Shown here piece after piece: positions 46,349 through 60,120 of a DNA stretch of 64,000 nucleotides. The translations under genes were made by a program, and so were the position numbers. Location of the stretch: positions 1 to 64,000 of the forward strand of contig CANMBF010000006.1 in assembly GCA_947496065.1 (NCBI GenBank), given 5' to 3'. This stretch comes from Bacteroidota bacterium. GTDB lineage: Bacteria > Bacteroidota > Bacteroidia > NS11-12g > UBA955. How positions within the stretch are numbered: position 1 is the stretch's first letter; each line of letters starts with the position of its first letter. The notes beneath the pieces are model-generated. The model searched no databases. It worked only from the letters and a program-made list of their open reading frames with translations, and was not told the DNA's origin.

Positions 46349-46717
46349 TATATTTAGATTCAGTTTCATTTTTAACAAAGATAATTCCTTTGTTATGTAT
46401 TTTTTTAGTTTATTTAGAGTTCAGCAATATCAATACTAAAGCCGATATTAAACGTTTATAAACGGTTCTATTCGACTGTAAGTACTTAATTACCGACTCT
46501 AGAAATCTAACATCCCCAACTTTGCACTGAACCAGAAAGGTCTAGGGTTTTTGAAACAAGCATTCCTATAGGGTTCTAAAGATAATAAAATATGAATAAA
46601 AAAGAAATGACCTCACGGTTCAGCGCAAGCATCAATAAATCGGAACTATTGTGTTTTAATTTCAAATTCACTCACAGTATTACGACTAAAAGCAAAAAAT
46701 TTAAATACATATATATC

Positions 46718-47107
46718 ATGAAAAATTTAATCAATTCAGTACGTCTAATGGGCAATGTAGGAGCAACTCCTGAAGTAAAAATGTTTGACAATGGCAGTAA
46801 GGTTGCTAAGTTAAGATTAGCCACTAACGAGAAACAAAAAAACGCAAAAGGCGAAACCATCGCTATCACCCATTGGCACAATTTAGTGTTCTGGGGCAAG
46901 CAAGCCGAGCTTATTGAAAAGTACATCGACAAAGGAGAGCGCATTGCCATCGAAGGCACATTGGCCAACCGCTTTTATGAAACAAATACTGGTGAAAAGC
47001 GACAGATTACAGAAGTCAAAGTAGATAGCTTCGAATTTGTGAGTCGCAAAGTTCAGAACAATCAGGTTGCCAATGAATCAATAGTGCCAGCGGATCTTCC
47101 ATTCTAA
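46718..47107 (+). CDS. ssb: Single-stranded DNA-binding protein, copy 1
   Basis: OB-fold SSB of 129 residues: NSVRLMGNVGATPEVK at the start, then KVAKLRLATNEKQ, THWHNLVFWGKQAELIEKYI and KGERIAIEGTLANRFYE. It ends in DLPF, the acidic/aromatic tip that recruits repair proteins. I start at 46718. The frame extends upstream to 46592, but that part is unlike any SSB and the second copy begins at the equivalent Met. Its 5' region (about 20 bases plus the first 70 bases of coding DNA) is almost identical to that of copy 2. Confidence 0.93.
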   Translation: MKNLINSVRLMGNVGATPEVKMFDNGSKVAKLRLATNEKQKNAKGETIAITHWHNLVFWGKQAELIEKYIDKGERIAIEGTLANRFYETNTGEKRQITEVKVDSFEFVSRKVQNNQVANESIVPADLPF

Positions 47108-47172: not shown

Positions 47173-47562
47173 ATGAAAAGTTTAATCAATTCAGTACGTC
47201 TAATGGGCAATGTAGGAGCAACTCCTGAAGTAAAAAGTTTCGACAATGGAAACAAAGTAGCAAAATTAAGATTGGCAACAAACGAAAAACAAAAAAATGC
47301 AAAAGGTGAAACGGTTGAAATCACCCATTGGCACAATTTAGTATTTTGGGGCAAGTCGGCAGAGCTTATCGAAAAGTACATCGACAAGGGCGAACGCATT
47401 GCCATCGAAGGTACGCTTGCCAACCGTTTTTATGAGACCAAAACAGGCGATAAAAGACAAATCACCGAAGTGCGTGTGGAGAGTTTTGAGATGGTGGGAA
47501 GAAAGAACCAAACGAATTCACCGGTTGTGGAGTTTACGGTAGCAGATGATCTGCCGTTTTAA
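47173..47562 (+). CDS. ssb: Single-stranded DNA-binding protein, copy 2
   Basis: A 129-residue SSB in tandem with copy 1, 455 bp downstream. The products are about 80% identical by eye and both end in DDLPF/ADLPF. The shared leader AAAAAATTTAAATACATATA before both ATGs shows the duplication included the 5' untranslated region. Differences are concentrated in the last 40 residues. Two SSBs are common in Bacteroidetes; which is the housekeeping copy cannot be told. Confidence 0.93.
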   Translation: MKSLINSVRLMGNVGATPEVKSFDNGNKVAKLRLATNEKQKNAKGETVEITHWHNLVFWGKSAELIEKYIDKGERIAIEGTLANRFYETKTGDKRQITEVRVESFEMVGRKNQTNSPVVEFTVADDLPF

Positions 47563-48325: not shown

Positions 48326-48751
48326 TTATTCTTGAATGGCTTCAATGCCTTGGGCTTTTAGGTCCGCCAATCGGTCCTTCATTTTTTGCAGTTGTTCTTT
48401 TGTATGACCTTCCCAAACCGTTAATTCATCGACGATTTTTAATGGGTGGCCGCTGCGGTAAGATCTGGTAGGATTGCCTGAAAATTTCTTGTTTGTTAAA
48501 TTAGGATCGTCTTCAAATTGAGGAACCATGGGTTCTACAATAAAGATTCTACTAGGGCCATCACCTAATGCCAATTCAGCACCCCAAATAGCAGCATCGA
48601 GGGTGGCAGTGAAGTAGACAAAATTGGCTTTATTATTTTGCCCATAATTAGATGCGTAACCTGGCACTATATAATTGCCAATTTTGAGATTGGCTTTGGT
48701 GCCATGGTAATAGGTGGAGAAGTTACCCAGGCTGTCTTTTTGTGCTTCCAT
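48326..48751 (-). CDS. arr: Rifampin ADP-ribosyltransferase (Arr)
   Basis: Soluble 141-residue enzyme that transfers ADP-ribose from NAD+ to rifampin. Diagnostic segments are YYHGTKANLKIGNYIVPGY near 14-32, NFVYFTATLDAAIWGAELA near 43-61, IFIVEPMVPQFEDDPNLTNKKF near 69-90 and NPTRSYRS near 93. The length equals known Arr proteins. Here it lies 36 bp after the EutBC stop in a chromosomal, non-mobile context, so an intrinsic resistance or housekeeping ADP-ribosylation role is likely. Confidence 0.93.
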   Translation of the reverse strand: MEAQKDSLGNFSTYYHGTKANLKIGNYIVPGYASNYGQNNKANFVYFTATLDAAIWGAELALGDGPSRIFIVEPMVPQFEDDPNLTNKKFSGNPTRSYRSGHPLKIVDELTVWEGHTKEQLQKMKDRLADLKAQGIEAIQE

Positions 48752-48787: not shown

Positions 48788-51100
48788 TTACTGTTTACTA
48801 AATAATTCATTTATGATTTTTGCCACGGTATTACTTGCTTCTATCGGGTTTAATGCAGTATCAGAAATGCCTGACACAACCTTTGTTATATCATGATCAA
48901 TAACACCCTTTGAATTCCATTTTAAACTTTCAGCAACGGTTAAGTAGGCCGAAAAATTATGATGTTCAGACCCTGGTCGTTCGCCAATAATATGTAGAAT
49001 GCCATGTTTTTTAGGTGTTGAATTATTGCTGCCAAACAATATTTCTCCGCACGCATAACCAGCTCTCACACGGCCATTGTTTATGAAGATTTGATTATTT
49101 CCTAATGTATAATTATCATCACTAAGCATTTTAATTAGGTTAGACAAAAAGGGCGCAAGGTGCCCATGGTCCATAATTGCTTTTACATTCAATCCATCAG
49201 AAATTACAATTTGGATGTCAGGTATATTTTTTTGCCAATTGGTTTTAATTGCCTTAAGCTTTTTAACGGCATTTGCGTTTAAAACTTCGCCAGAAGCAGG
49301 GTGATAAACATAATCTTTTCTATTTAGAGACCGCGTGTTAATTGGAACAGTCGCTTTTAAATTATTAATAAAAGAAGGATCCATTTCTGTCCATAAACAA
49401 ACTTTCGCATCCTCGTATAAATAATGAACCCTTTTATCTAAAGCGTCTGGGAGGTCCCAATAATTTTTGCCATAGCCTTGAGCAATTGGTACCCCTCGGC
49501 TTTCAATTCTTGAAATCGCTGCTTTGCCTTCTTGATAGATATCGCTGATGGACTTTGCACCTTTTTTGGTTTGTAGATATTTGTAATAAACCCAAATTGG
49601 ATCTCCAAAATGTTCTGTAGGTTGTCCATTGGCATCAATGATTTCAAGTTTTTTGTAGAAGTCCCACATGGCATCGTTCACCTTATAGCCAAATTGTTTT
49701 CTAATTTTTACGTGGTTGTTAAAAGCGGTTGTAAGATAACTTAACATGGGGTCATTTTTGGTTGGCAAGGCCATTAAGTATGCAGGATTGGCGGGCATTA
49801 CTTGATCAATGCACCAATCTAAATCATCTAAGGTAACATCCATATGCAGGGTAGAACAGATATCTAAACCAATTGTATGTCCATGCAGTTTGCCCATAAC
49901 AGTATCTTCTAAACAACAACGTACCAATTGTTCTTTGGTTCTGAAAACCTCTGGTCCAATAAATCCCGCCACATCATTAACATGCACCCAAGCATTGGTT
50001 TCATTTTTAAGTTTCATTATTTTTTGTTTGAGCACTCTTAAAAAGCCATACTTGCGCGATTCATGAATCACCATGTCAAACCCTTCACCGTGGCCATTGG
50101 TCATATCGGCACCTTGTCCAGTTTCTGCATAAAATCCATAGTGGCCATTTCTTAGTGCGGCATATTTCATCATTTTTTCTATGGTTACATCGAAGGTTTT
50201 ATTGGCATTTACAGTGCTTGCAAGGCTTTGAAACCAGATGCCCGTGCTTCCTGGGTTTTGTTTCTCTACCTCTGCTTGCACATCAACATGCGAAAGCACA
50301 CAGTGGGGTATAATTTCTTCTAAATCAAAACTTTTAATTATTTCAAAAAGTGCGTTTTCAATTTTGGCAACAGATGCTGGTTCGCTTGAAACAGGATTGG
50401 TGCCTAAAACGACATCGCCAACTGCATAAGCCCAAGCATTAAATACTTGCCAGGTGATGTCTTCAATATCGTCTGTTGGTGAATTGGGTTGCACCCTAGC
50501 ACCCATGTACCCTTTCTCACCAATATTGCTATTGGGAAGTGGATTAAAAATCTTTTTACTAAGCAGTACGAGTTCTTCATTGCTCAATAATTTTACTAAA
50601 CAGGCAATCACATCGCTGCTTAGGCAAGGCATAATGCCTTTAATTTTTTCTTCTGTTTCTGTTAGCAGAAAGTTTTTTAATTCTTTGAAAGTCCAACTCT
50701 CAATGGTTTGATTTTGCAACGTTGCTTGTTGCATCAGAATCAAAAGTTCATCTGAATAAACTACATTTTTATTGAGGTCGCCTAATTTTGTATTACCTAA
50801 CAATACTCTGGCATTTAGTCTCGAAGCCTCGTTAGCAGCTGCAATTTTCAATGATTCATCACCCTCTTTGAATTCATTTGCAGCGCCTAAAATTTGTTTA
50901 TAGAGGGTGTTACTAAATGAGCCATTTGTGCGCTGAATATATCCAAATATATCTTCACCTAATGCGGGTGTTTCAATAATGGGTGCAATGGTACTTTGGC
51001 TAAAACTTTGTTCTTTTTTGCCAAAGAGATTGCAACTACTTAACAATAAAACGGAAGCACTCGCATAGCTTGTTTGTTGTATGAATTTTTTTCTGTTCAT
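48788..51100 (-). CDS. eutBC: Exported fused ethanolamine ammonia-lyase (EutB-EutC)
   Basis: Adenosylcobalamin-type ethanolamine ammonia-lyase with both subunits in one 770-residue chain. The EutB part spans about 110-560 (GARVQPNSPTDDIEDITWQV, VNDVAGFIGPEVF, GLDICSTLHMDVTLDDLDW, LPTKNDPMLSYLTTAFNNH). The EutC part follows a linker and has VISDGLNVKAIMD near 630 and HIIGERPGSEHHNFSAYLT near 703. The N-terminus MNRKKFIQQ...LLLSSCN looks like a Tat-type lipoprotein signal (RK plus FI, Cys23). I start at 51100; the upstream extension to 51313 is not family-like. No other eut genes or microcompartment genes are nearby. It lies 32 bp after the hydrolase gene. Confidence 0.88.
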   Translation of the reverse strand: MNRKKFIQQTSYASASVLLLSSCNLFGKKEQSFSQSTIAPIIETPALGEDIFGYIQRTNGSFSNTLYKQILGAANEFKEGDESLKIAAANEASRLNARVLLGNTKLGDLNKNVVYSDELLILMQQATLQNQTIESWTFKELKNFLLTETEEKIKGIMPCLSSDVIACLVKLLSNEELVLLSKKIFNPLPNSNIGEKGYMGARVQPNSPTDDIEDITWQVFNAWAYAVGDVVLGTNPVSSEPASVAKIENALFEIIKSFDLEEIIPHCVLSHVDVQAEVEKQNPGSTGIWFQSLASTVNANKTFDVTIEKMMKYAALRNGHYGFYAETGQGADMTNGHGEGFDMVIHESRKYGFLRVLKQKIMKLKNETNAWVHVNDVAGFIGPEVFRTKEQLVRCCLEDTVMGKLHGHTIGLDICSTLHMDVTLDDLDWCIDQVMPANPAYLMALPTKNDPMLSYLTTAFNNHVKIRKQFGYKVNDAMWDFYKKLEIIDANGQPTEHFGDPIWVYYKYLQTKKGAKSISDIYQEGKAAISRIESRGVPIAQGYGKNYWDLPDALDKRVHYLYEDAKVCLWTEMDPSFINNLKATVPINTRSLNRKDYVYHPASGEVLNANAVKKLKAIKTNWQKNIPDIQIVISDGLNVKAIMDHGHLAPFLSNLIKMLSDDNYTLGNNQIFINNGRVRAGYACGEILFGSNNSTPKKHGILHIIGERPGSEHHNFSAYLTVAESLKWNSKGVIDHDITKVVSGISDTALNPIEASNTVAKIINELFSKQ

Positions 51101-51132: not shown

Positions 51133-52167
51133 TTATTGTTTTACTTTTTTTATGAATTTGATGAGTCCATTGAAGTATGTTTTTTGATCGTCGTAATAGC
51201 AAAAATGACTGCCATTTGGACACAATAAAAATTCGCCTTTGGGTATTTGTTGACTCATCCATTCCAAATATTTGGGGTCCATGGTATCGTATGTAGCACC
51301 TATCACAAGACAAGGCACTTGAATGTTTTTTAATTCAGCACTCACATCCCAATTGGCGAGTTTGCCAGCCACACCAAATTCACTAGGACCTTGCATATTA
51401 TTGTAAAGTTCGTAGTTTAATTTGCTCATGAATCTGTTCACTGGTTCGGGCCATTCTTTTAAACGGATGATGTGTTTAGAATAAAAATGGGGATTTAATA
51501 ATTCCATGTATTTGGGGTTTTGGAAATCACCATTTTTTTCTATTGTGCGAATAGTATCTAAAACCGCAGGTGGCATTTGTTTGGCCAATACTTCATTGGC
51601 ATATTGTCCATAGGCGGGGCAACTGGCCATCATATCTGAAATGATTAATCCCTTCAAATGCGATTGGTATTTGAGGGCGTATTGCATGGCCAAGATACCA
51701 CCCCAAGAATGACCTAATAAATAAAAATTATTATTGTCTAAATTTAATGCAATACGCACTTGCTCAAGTTCTTCAACAAAACGCGGCAAATCATAAAAAG
51801 CGGTATCTTTTGGATTGTCCGAATTGCCAGAGGCCAATTTGGCGTAATAAATAAATTCAATATTTTCTTTTGGTAAAAAATTTTCGAAACATTCAAATGC
51901 ATCGTGCGAGCCGCCTGGTCCGCCGTGTAGCAGAAGTACACGCACAGTTGGATTGTTGCCCATGCGCTTGGTCCATACCTTAAAGGGACCCTTAGGGGTA
52001 TTAATGGTAATTAATTTCACGCCACCTACCTGTACGCCAGAATCGGGGTTGTTAAAATAAGTTGAATGAAGACTATCTGCCGATGATTTGCTATTGGCTG
52101 TTGAGCATGCTTGTAAGCTAGAAATAAGGAGGATAATTAGGAGGCATTTTATGCTATAATAGTTCAT
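51133..52167 (-). CDS. Alpha/beta hydrolase lipoprotein, proline iminopeptidase-like
   Basis: Exported S33-type hydrolase of 344 residues. The lipoprotein signal ends LQAC (Cys21). The oxyanion region LLLHGGPGGSHD near 79, the nucleophile Ser154 in GHSWGG, a late Asp (GATYDTMDP near 290) and the terminal His in NGSHFCYYDD near 319 complete the fold. The family DQxGSG element reads AKLASG here, a conspicuous change. It likely cleaves N-terminal proline or another small amide/ester in the periplasm. Directly upstream of EutBC. Confidence 0.85.
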   Translation of the reverse strand: MNYYSIKCLLIILLISSLQACSTANSKSSADSLHSTYFNNPDSGVQVGGVKLITINTPKGPFKVWTKRMGNNPTVRVLLLHGGPGGSHDAFECFENFLPKENIEFIYYAKLASGNSDNPKDTAFYDLPRFVEELEQVRIALNLDNNNFYLLGHSWGGILAMQYALKYQSHLKGLIISDMMASCPAYGQYANEVLAKQMPPAVLDTIRTIEKNGDFQNPKYMELLNPHFYSKHIIRLKEWPEPVNRFMSKLNYELYNNMQGPSEFGVAGKLANWDVSAELKNIQVPCLVIGATYDTMDPKYLEWMSQQIPKGEFLLCPNGSHFCYYDDQKTYFNGLIKFIKKVKQ

Positions 52168-53257: not shown

Positions 53258-54424
53258 ATGTTCCAAAACACATCCATTCAATTTGAACTTTTAAAAAAGC
53301 GCGCCTTTAATTTAAGGTGGGCCGCGGTTCCTGAAGGGGTTATTCCACTCACAGCGGCCGATCCGGATTTTCCGAGTGCGCCCGAAATAGCAGAAGCAAT
53401 TAGTGGATTCGCCAAAGAGAAATATTATTGTTATGTTGCTCCCGAAGGCATGACGGATTTCAAAGAAAGCATTGCGCATTATTTTCAAACTAAGCGCCAT
53501 GTGCCTGTTTCGCCTGCATTAGCATTTCCGGTTAACAGCGCTGCGCATGGGATATACCTCACGTGTAAAGCCTTTTTAAATCCTGGTGATGAGGCGATTA
53601 TTTTTGATCCTGTCGATTTTTTATTTAGGTATTCCATCGAAGCAGTGAATGCCAAAGCGGTAAGCTTTGCAATTCCTGCAGGCATAGCAAACGTTAATTT
53701 CGAAGAACTTGAAACATTGATTACACCGCGAACAAAAATGATTTGCTTGTGTAATCCTCTAAATCCGACTGGAAAGGTTTTTACCAAGGCAGAATTAACG
53801 CAATTGGCCAAAATAGTTAGTCAACATGGTTTACTAATTTTATCTGATGAAATTTGGAGTGATATTGTTTTTGAACCCGCTGTATTTACAAGCATGGCCT
53901 CTATTGATGAAGCCATCAGGCAACAAACCATCACCATTACAGGTTTTAGTAAGTCGTATGGATTAGCTGGCTTGAGAATAGGGGCAGTGATTGCCCATAA
54001 TCAAAAACATTTTCAAATGTTAATGGACGCTTCGCTCCATTATTCCACCATTCATGGGGTGAGTGTGCTCTCGCAAGTGGCGGCTACCACTGCTTTAAAC
54101 CAATGTGACTATTGGTTAAAAGGATTTGTAAATCACCTGACCAATATGAAAAATTTACTGGTCAATGAATTGAACACCATTCCTGGTTTTAAATGCATAG
54201 CACCCGAAGGCTGTTATGTTGCGTTTACAGATATTCAACAAACAAATTTAACAAGTCAAGCACTCTATGAACGCTTATTAAACGAAGCCAAAGTAGCTGT
54301 GGTGCCTGGCCTAAAACAATGGTTTGGCGAAGGAGCCGAAGGGCATATTCGCATGAGTTTTGCGACTTCTGAAGTTGTATTGAGAGAAGCCATGCAAAGA
54401 ATCAAAAGGGAGGTTAAGGGATGA
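53258..54424 (+). CDS. PLP-dependent class I/II aminotransferase or C-S lyase
   Basis: Fold-type I PLP enzyme, 388 residues. The PLP lysine is Lys232 in TGFSKSYGLAG. The substrate-binding CNPLNPTGKVF lies near 165, the SDEIWSD metal-free Asp region near 196, and the C-terminal HIRMSFATS arginine near 367. The pattern fits the MalY/PatB to aspartate-aminotransferase range. It overlaps the next gene by 4 bp (ATGA), so its product probably acts with the flavoprotein-thioredoxin fusion. Confidence 0.85.
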   Translation: MFQNTSIQFELLKKRAFNLRWAAVPEGVIPLTAADPDFPSAPEIAEAISGFAKEKYYCYVAPEGMTDFKESIAHYFQTKRHVPVSPALAFPVNSAAHGIYLTCKAFLNPGDEAIIFDPVDFLFRYSIEAVNAKAVSFAIPAGIANVNFEELETLITPRTKMICLCNPLNPTGKVFTKAELTQLAKIVSQHGLLILSDEIWSDIVFEPAVFTSMASIDEAIRQQTITITGFSKSYGLAGLRIGAVIAHNQKHFQMLMDASLHYSTIHGVSVLSQVAATTALNQCDYWLKGFVNHLTNMKNLLVNELNTIPGFKCIAPEGCYVAFTDIQQTNLTSQALYERLLNEAKVAVVPGLKQWFGEGAEGHIRMSFATSEVVLREAMQRIKREVKG

Positions 54425-56361
54425 AGGCAGTAATCATAGGTGGGGGTATTGCTGGCCTAACCATGGCCTTACACCTTCAACGCAACCAATGGGAAGTGGT
54501 GGTTTGTGAAAAAGCAAATAGCCTTAAAACCCGCGGTCATGCTTTCTTAATTAATTATGAAGGGCTCTTAGTGTTGTCAGAATTTTTTAAGGAAACATCC
54601 CATAAATTATTAAAGCAAAGGGTTGATTTATTCAGTTTAAAACGGCCCGATGGGGAGGAAAAAATTAAGATACAATTGATTGATTGGTATTGCATGAAAC
54701 GCATTGATTTGATTGCATTTTTAAATTCGTTTTTTACAAAAAAAACACTCAGAGAAGGCAATGCCTTTTCGCATTTCTTGTACAATGGCGAAAAGGCCAT
54801 TGCTGCTGTATTTGAGAATGGTAGCATGGAATATGGCGATTTGTTTATAGGGGCCGATGGTAGTAATTCTAAAGTGAGACAAGTAATTCATTGCAAAACC
54901 AATTACAGTAAGATTGAAGTAAATGAAGTGGTAGGCACATCGAAAAAGCAATTGAACAATGCGACCAAAGAATTTTTATTTCAAAAAATTCAAAGCGAGG
55001 AAAAAGGACTTGCCTTTGGTTACATACCAGCATCTGAAGACGAGATGGTGTGGTTTATGCAATATGATGTAAAATTATCAAATGGGAAGGAGATTAGTCA
55101 CCCAGAAGAATTAAAAGCTTTTTGTACTGCAATGATGAAGGATTTTCCGGAAGATGTGCATGCGGTTTTAGAGGCTACCGATTTTAGAAATGCCTATATT
55201 TGGAAGACGAGAGATTTTGATTTAATTCCAGGTTTTCATAAAGAAAATGTTGTTTTAATTGGAGATGCTGCGCATTTGGCTTTGCCTTTTACCAGCGCTG
55301 GTACTTCGAACGCCATTGCCGATGCCAAATGTCTTTCTGAATGTCTGCAACATCATGCTAATTTTGAAACGGCTTTTCAAAATTATTACACCCTTCGGTC
55401 AGAAAAAGTTAAGAGTCATATTGAACAAGGGAGAGTACTCAAAAAAATATTTTTAAATCCCCGAAAATACAGTGAACGCGGTTTCCTTATGCCATTGGTT
55501 TCTCAAACTGATAATTATAAAAAATTTAAGGACAAGGAACATTTAACGATCATGTATTTCACCGATCCAATATGCTCTACCTGTTGGATTGCACAGCCTA
55601 TATTAAGAAGATTAGAAGTAGAGTATGGGGCCTATTTAAAATTTGAATATCACATGGGTGGATTATTGCCATCATGGAAAGATTATGCCAGAGGAGAAAT
55701 AAAGACACCCATAGATGCAGCAAAACATTGGGCAGAAGTTAACGATTCTCAGAATATGATTTTAGATGGCGATGTATGGATTGAAGATCCTATACATTCT
55801 TCCTATCCGCCTTCTATAGCTTTCAAAGCTGCACAATTGCAAGACAATGATAAAGCCATTACTTTTTTAAGGCGTTTAAAAGAATTTGTATTTTTAGAAA
55901 AGCGCAACATTACCCGTTGGAAAATAATAGAGAACGCAGCACTTACCAGTGGATTAGATGCAGCATTGCTAAAGAAGGATATTGAAATTAATGGCTTAAA
56001 ATTATTTAAAGAAGATTTGGTCTTAACAAAGGAAATGGAAGTAGTGATGTTCCCAACGTTCTTTTTTTTACAAAATGGAATTATAAAAAATACCATTAAG
56101 GGCTGCGAGACTTATGAAGTTTTTGAAGAAATTATTAAGAAATTATTGCCAGATGTAAAGAAAGAAACAGAGCGCTTATCGCCTGTGGCTATTTTCTCAC
56201 GTTTTCACAACATGACAGAAGATGAATATGCATTTGTAACCTATACGACTATTGAGGAAACGCGTATTATTTTAAATCAATTACATGAACAATTATTCAT
56301 CAATAAATTCTACAGCAAACACGGGGTGGTATGGATGTTTAATTTGAATGCAAGTATCTAG
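54421..56361 (+). CDS. FAD monooxygenase fused to a YjbH/DsbA-like thioredoxin domain
   Basis: A 646-residue two-domain protein in one uninterrupted frame. Residues 1-360 are a p-hydroxybenzoate-hydroxylase-type flavoprotein: dinucleotide-binding IIGGGIAGLTMA at 4-15, GADGSNSKVR near 141, and the FAD GDAAHLALPFTSAGTSNA loop from 281. Residues 372-590 are a thioredoxin-like domain of the Thioredoxin_5/YjbH kind with FTDPICSTCW (Cys385 and Cys388), YHMGGLLPSW and SSYPPSIAFKAAQ. I know no standard enzyme with this pairing. A shared redox reaction on a sulfur-containing product is inference. Coupled to the aminotransferase by a 4-bp overlap. Confidence 0.85.
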   Translation: MKAVIIGGGIAGLTMALHLQRNQWEVVVCEKANSLKTRGHAFLINYEGLLVLSEFFKETSHKLLKQRVDLFSLKRPDGEEKIKIQLIDWYCMKRIDLIAFLNSFFTKKTLREGNAFSHFLYNGEKAIAAVFENGSMEYGDLFIGADGSNSKVRQVIHCKTNYSKIEVNEVVGTSKKQLNNATKEFLFQKIQSEEKGLAFGYIPASEDEMVWFMQYDVKLSNGKEISHPEELKAFCTAMMKDFPEDVHAVLEATDFRNAYIWKTRDFDLIPGFHKENVVLIGDAAHLALPFTSAGTSNAIADAKCLSECLQHHANFETAFQNYYTLRSEKVKSHIEQGRVLKKIFLNPRKYSERGFLMPLVSQTDNYKKFKDKEHLTIMYFTDPICSTCWIAQPILRRLEVEYGAYLKFEYHMGGLLPSWKDYARGEIKTPIDAAKHWAEVNDSQNMILDGDVWIEDPIHSSYPPSIAFKAAQLQDNDKAITFLRRLKEFVFLEKRNITRWKIIENAALTSGLDAALLKKDIEINGLKLFKEDLVLTKEMEVVMFPTFFFLQNGIIKNTIKGCETYEVFEEIIKKLLPDVKKETERLSPVAIFSRFHNMTEDEYAFVTYTTIEETRIILNQLHEQLFINKFYSKHGVVWMFNLNASI

Positions 56362-59556: not shown

Positions 59557-60120
59557 TTTTTTTATATTGCCTACTCTTAACGGTTTTCGGCTTCTCCGTT
59601 TTTTTAATTAATAATACATGTTACAGTATTTATGCAGTAATGCCAAACACACAGCATATATTGGTTTAATTTGCACGGAAATTATGCTAAAAAATTTGAA
59701 CATAAAAATATATTTAACAAATTCAAACCTTGTATTATAATAGTACCAAACACCAATAGCAAAAAAACATTGTTATGAGTAGCTTTAAAGAGGATAATAG
59801 AATTTAATTTCTCAAAAGAATGGGATGAAGAAAAATAAAATTGGACAATATTTTGCGTTTAAAATATTGATTCCACTTGCAATCTAGCAGTCTATTAAGT
59901 TTCATGATTGTGCTAGCTGACTATAGATAAGACTGTAAAAAAATGCTTGTGTCAAACGAACCGATTAAAAACAGATGCAATTAAAAACTTAATATTGCTA
60001 TTCACAGGAGGGCATGTTCGTGCTTTTTGAAAGCAGAATTTGATATCGTTTTTCTGATGGCTTCGTTCCATGCATGTTTTATTTTGCATTTTTGAATAAC
60101 ACAAAAAACGGCAATGTCGA

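Follow-up and report, generated by a model that had tools for sequence, protein, structure and literature searches.

Enzymes that use adenosylcobalamin for radical chemistry are, to our knowledge, regarded as cytoplasmic, and adenosylcobalamin synthesis is normally intracellular. For ethanolamine ammonia-lyase (EAL), we take the substrate-binding residues of E. coli EutB to be R160, Q162, N193, E287 and D362, and the adenosylcobalamin contacts to be P194, Q246, S295 and M401 of EutB together with V207, E228 and C258 of EutC. In Salmonella, the peptide formed by EutC residues 1–19 directs entry into the microcompartment (PMC3299773). Reductive dehalogenase RdhA is a cobalamin enzyme that is exported in the folded state via Tat (PMC6095959), and exported reductive dehalogenases thus demonstrate that a cobalamin enzyme can use this route.

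Here we analyzed a stretch of 64,000 nucleotides of Bacteroidota DNA, hereafter the window, and identified on its minus strand a gene for a 770-aa EutB–EutC fusion (48788..51100), delineated from the open reading frame, Pfam and a structural model. The reading frame runs unbroken from an ATG at 51100 and encodes an EutB domain (residues 67–496, 49613..50902, minus strand; Pfam, E 5.7e-131), a linker that is mostly helical in the model (residues 497–561, 49418..49612, minus strand; placed by alignment and model), and an EutC domain carrying the motifs SDGL, GRVR and GERPG (residues 562–769, 48794..49417, minus strand; Pfam, E 1e-30). Both Pfam domains are thus found in a single chain, as an earlier note on this DNA had claimed. 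In alignment, the linker stands in for the N-terminal region of EutC. Among NCBIfam models, the EutB subfamily PRK15067 matched above its cut-off and the EutC equivalog PRK05465 matched below its cut-off. The predicted structure (pLDDT 83.9, pTM 0.82) resembles known EAL subunits in both halves, with its EutB part matching 3abo_A (Z 38.2, 2.7 Å over 431) and its EutC part matching 5ysr_D (Z 24.3, 4.6 Å over 235). Window residues R202, Q204, N235, E326 and D413 align with E. coli R160, Q162, N193, E287 and D362, and these substrate residues are identical in 79 of 79 aligned rows of the family described below. Cofactor positions Q246 and M401 of EutB and V207 and E228 of EutC are likewise invariant in all 79 rows, P194 is kept in 78 of 79, and the adenosylcobalamin contacts are otherwise preserved apart from S295, which is Thr in 78 of 79 rows, and C258, which is Val or Leu. 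Comparison with E. coli EutBC, which the earlier note had called for, therefore finds the active site intact at all five substrate positions and nearly all cobalamin positions. All sequence and structural tests that we applied identify the window protein as an EAL, with predicted activity.

To define the family, contigs were scanned with peptide patterns taken from the mature part of the protein, and signals were not selected for because the patterns came from that part. The scan recovered 79 relatives, nearly all full-length fusions, with 49–90% identity and an N-terminal extension comparable to the window's in nearly all of them. The window EutBC fusion with its N-terminal extension is real, and neither chance nor artefact. 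The fused clade spans Bacteroidota, Planctomycetota, Rhizobiales, Desulfobacterota, Acidobacteriota, Myxococcota and others, with Desulfuromonadales among the deltaproteobacterial relatives, and in a tree with twelve canonical EutB proteins a branch of support 100 separates the fused rows from them. Canonical EutB has no N-terminal extension, the chain beginning at the domain. Across 83 clade N-termini, 62 carry RR (59 by strict pattern and L020, L029 and L086 by eye), 8 carry RK, 10 are Sec-like, 2 lie at contig ends and 1 (L021) has no recognizable signal; an export-type N-terminus is present in 80 of the 83. All 8 RK members belong to Bacteroidota, the window protein included, and 7 of them have a cysteine ending the hydrophobic stretch, while most of the 10 Sec-like signals are more hydrophobic. 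In L089, a homolog from the same genus, an in-frame TAA falls within the EutBC match.

An independent check with the EutB family model over 294 Planctomycetota genomes yielded, within the clade, 10 proteins bearing RR, of which one came from the centre genome, and 2 lacking a signal (L150 and L154). It also returned 7 canonical EutB proteins, none with a signal, and 3 signal-less fusions (L136, L146 and L149) that group nearer canonical EutB. One planctomycete genome (G461) encodes both an exported-type fused EutBC (L130) and a signal-less fusion of the other clade (L136). The proposal that all fused EutBC proteins are exported was dropped in view of the signal-less fused proteins among Planctomycetota, and the missing signals of L021, L150 and L154 indicate that the enzyme can evidently stay in the cytoplasm. 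Predicted export signals are thus the rule in the clade without being universal, and fusion also arises outside it. Among 395 Bacteroidota genomes, canonical EutB (~460 aa) occurs in 11 and the fused form in 2; a canonical copy accompanies the fused form in one of 17 genomes, that of Bradyrhizobium, and is missing from the other 16. Judged by these sequences, fused EutBC with an export signal forms a broad family and is no isolated curiosity, a breadth that the earlier note had missed. Titles and abstracts in the open-access literature yielded no relevant description of an exported or fused EAL, and within that literature the family is apparently undescribed so far.

We examined the start of the gene and the nature of its N-terminus. 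The in-frame N-terminus reads MNRKKFIQQTSYASASVLLLSSC, and residues 1–24 align without gaps to two relatives of 88–90% identity. After the ATG at 51100, the frame offers no second ATG until codon 123, and the interval contains only the TTG codons 19, 84, 100 and 120. This lack of an ATG and the alignment of codons 1–24 in relatives speak against a start downstream of the signal region, which the earlier note had named as a finding that would refute its reading. An ordinary cytoplasmic EAL, in which the N-terminus is no export signal or the start lies beyond it, could draw on TTG codons 19 and 84 and would resemble the few clade members without a signal, but conservation of signal-like N-termini in many phyla, the distance to the first alternative ATG and the absence of such an extension from canonical EutB make this reading very improbable.

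Residues 1–22 (MNRKKFIQQTSYASASVLLLSS; 51035..51100, minus strand) form an export signal recognized from the sequence and from relatives, with RK at the twin-arginine place, and lead to a lipobox cysteine, Cys23 (LSSC, residues 20–23; 51032..51034, minus strand). A lipobox-like cysteine is also present in L002, L003, L004, L063, L072 and L086, and the prediction that the window protein is an exported lipoprotein is well supported. The earlier note had proposed a Tat lipoprotein, and of this claim the export-type signal and the lipobox stand. The twin-arginine pair of the S/T-R-R-x-F-L-K motif is absent from window EutBC, which has NRKKFI, so that the motif by itself does not establish Tat, and the TIGR01409 Tat HMM gave no match to window EutBC at E 10, with several relatives near the cut-off. 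All host Tat signals recognized by the Tat model carry RR. In E. coli, exchanging RR for KK sharply lowers or abolishes Tat export (PMC3383694); the window pair is RK and not KK. Several features nonetheless point to Tat: the motif's F and I/L are retained, the close relative L086 combines an RR pair with the same lipobox, and the h-region hydrophobicity of 1.72 falls within the range of host RR Tat signals (1.62–2.02) and below most Sec lipoproteins of the window (2.2–2.6), although the classes overlap. With RR clade-wide, a Tat-like h-region of low hydrophobicity and TatC encoded in the host genome, Tat export of the window protein is plausible.

Because of the RK pair and the missing Tat HMM match, the window protein, like its relatives with RK, may instead be a Sec lipoprotein, in which case an apoprotein would be exported unfolded, fold in the envelope and take up receptor-imported cobalamin. 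This reading is compatible with the lipobox, with the B12 import genes of the host and with ten relatives that have clear Sec-like signals, several of them adjoining corrinoid-type transporter genes. It sits poorly with an h-region as weakly hydrophobic as host Tat signals, with the retained F and I/L and with the RR pair and shared lipobox of L086, and it would need adenosylcobalamin outside the cytoplasm; we hold it possible but rather unlikely. Of the two routes we judge Tat the likelier for the window protein, at about twice the likelihood of Sec, and we consider it probable that the protein is an exported, lipid-anchored and catalytically competent single-chain EAL that most likely travels via Tat. 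The earlier note had further suggested that Tat allows the cofactor to be loaded first, and this fails as a family-wide rule, given the Sec-like signals of about ten members.

We next compared gene neighborhoods. A lipoprotein gene of the proline iminopeptidase-like alpha/beta hydrolase family (51133..52167, minus strand) lies 32 bp upstream of window EutBC and is its sole conserved neighbor, kept in L002 and L003, and a possible operon partner. Elsewhere in the window, an Arr (rifampin ADP-ribosyltransferase) family gene scoring above its NCBIfam cut-off lies 36 bp downstream of EutBC (48326–48751, minus strand), a tandem pair of very similar single-stranded-DNA-binding-protein-like genes occupies 46592–47107 and 47173–47562 (plus strand), a single open reading frame at 54421–56361 (plus strand) looks, on inspection by eye, like an FAD-dependent oxidoreductase with a DsbA/SpxH-like thioredoxin domain behind it, and a DUF805b RNA family match lies at 59568–59600 (minus strand). 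In L018, L019, L028, L071 and L073, the genes after EutBC encode a membrane protein and an ABC ATPase, and in four of the five they also include those for a periplasmic binding protein and a FecCD-type permease. The best models in L073 are corrinoid for the ATPase and BtuC for the permease, though neither match reaches its curated cut-off, and a cobalamin riboswitch there precedes a TonB receptor for which B12 receptor is the second-best model; across twelve related loci, Rfam placed a cobalamin riboswitch in L073 only and none in the window. Several deltaproteobacterial and acidobacterial members with Sec-like signals adjoin corrinoid-type ABC transporter genes, an association that is confounded with phylogeny. 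Genes for aldehyde ferredoxin oxidoreductase lie next to EutBC in L030, L032 and L036 and near it in L071 and L073, and a group of rhizobia has Zn-dependent alcohol dehydrogenases upstream of EutBC, one of them AdhP by model cut-off. Such B12-transport and aldehyde or alcohol enzyme neighbors fit B12 use and acetaldehyde production, and no common neighbor theme emerged beyond the delta/acidobacterial and rhizobial members and the nearest Bacteroidota.

The proximity of B12 transport genes to several members could also suit a non-catalytic exported cobalamin-binding protein for B12 capture or storage. B12 binding alone would not need the five substrate residues that are invariant in 79 rows, however, and acetaldehyde-using enzymes adjoin other members, so that we regard such a role as highly unlikely. 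Two further protein families recur at these loci. Membrane proteins of ~270 aa lie between Sec-type EutBC and corrinoid-type ABC genes (L073:8388-9200, L018:8244-9071 and five other loci), and the L073 protein has no Pfam or NCBIfam match and a model of pLDDT 69 with no significant PDB match. Upstream of exported-type EutBC lies a signal-peptide-bearing, beta-barrel-like family ending in F (L073:4832-5746, L071:4949-5926 and six other loci); its L073 member has no Pfam match, and the family is possibly an outer-membrane channel.

The host genome, ~97% complete, encodes a PduO-type adenosyltransferase. It also contains one cobalamin riboswitch, which precedes genes for a BtuB-like receptor and for a binding protein weakly resembling BtuF. 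No EutA was found in this genome, the sole candidate being rejected as FtsA, and no BMC shell gene occurs across it. The absence of reactivase and microcompartment genes, which the earlier note had reported for the surroundings of EutBC, thus extends to the whole genome. Four aldehyde dehydrogenase matches are present, and we know of no reactivase able to work ATP-free in the periplasm.

In the model that we infer for export and its route, for lipidation, for the state of the cofactor and for substrate and physiological role, the chain would fold and bind adenosylcobalamin in the cytoplasm, be exported by Tat through a degenerate RK motif, and be anchored by a lipid at Cys23, either to the outer face of the inner membrane or on the outer membrane. 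Outside the cytoplasm it would use adenosylcobalamin to convert ethanolamine, drawn from phospholipid turnover or the surroundings, into acetaldehyde and ammonia, and both products would diffuse or be transported inward. Fusion of the subunits would allow one signal to export both at a 1:1 ratio, and confinement of acetaldehyde formation to the envelope may replace the role of the microcompartment. Sec-type members would acquire the cofactor outside, which the adjoining transport genes make conceivable. We give even chances to the broader proposal of a widespread extracytoplasmic family of adenosylcobalamin radical enzymes, in which single-chain EAL would be exported via Tat or Sec, the envelope would replace the microcompartment and Sec members would use periplasmic B12.

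A family that carries export signals across several phyla would raise the questions of how an exported enzyme obtains or retains adenosylcobalamin, how its activity is kept up in the absence of ATP-driven reactivation, and whether acetaldehyde can be handled in the periplasm in place of a microcompartment. These questions are directly testable in cultured carriers, which include Roseivirga pacifica, Jiulongibacter sediminis, Sinorhizobium, Rhizobium and Microvirga.

Comparison with known systems defines what is shared and what is distinct. With EutBC of E. coli (PDB 3ABO/5YSN/5YSR) and Listeria EutB (2QEZ), the window protein has in common its domains, predicted fold, and substrate and cobalamin-contact positions, at ~30% identity in EutB and 22% in EutC. 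In contrast to canonical EutBC, it is one chain with an export signal, it has no EutC N-terminal region and therefore no 1–19 targeting peptide, and its host has neither reactivase nor shell. The signal-less fused EutBC proteins of Planctomycetota (L136, L146 and L149) share an EutB–EutC fusion like the window's but have no export signal and form their own well-supported clade nearer canonical EutB. RdhA differs from window EutBC in having an RR motif where the window has RK, and its chemistry is unrelated to that of EAL, with extra Fe-S clusters and no adenosyl radical. Together, these sequence-based comparisons identify the window protein as an EAL in a new arrangement and probably in a new location.
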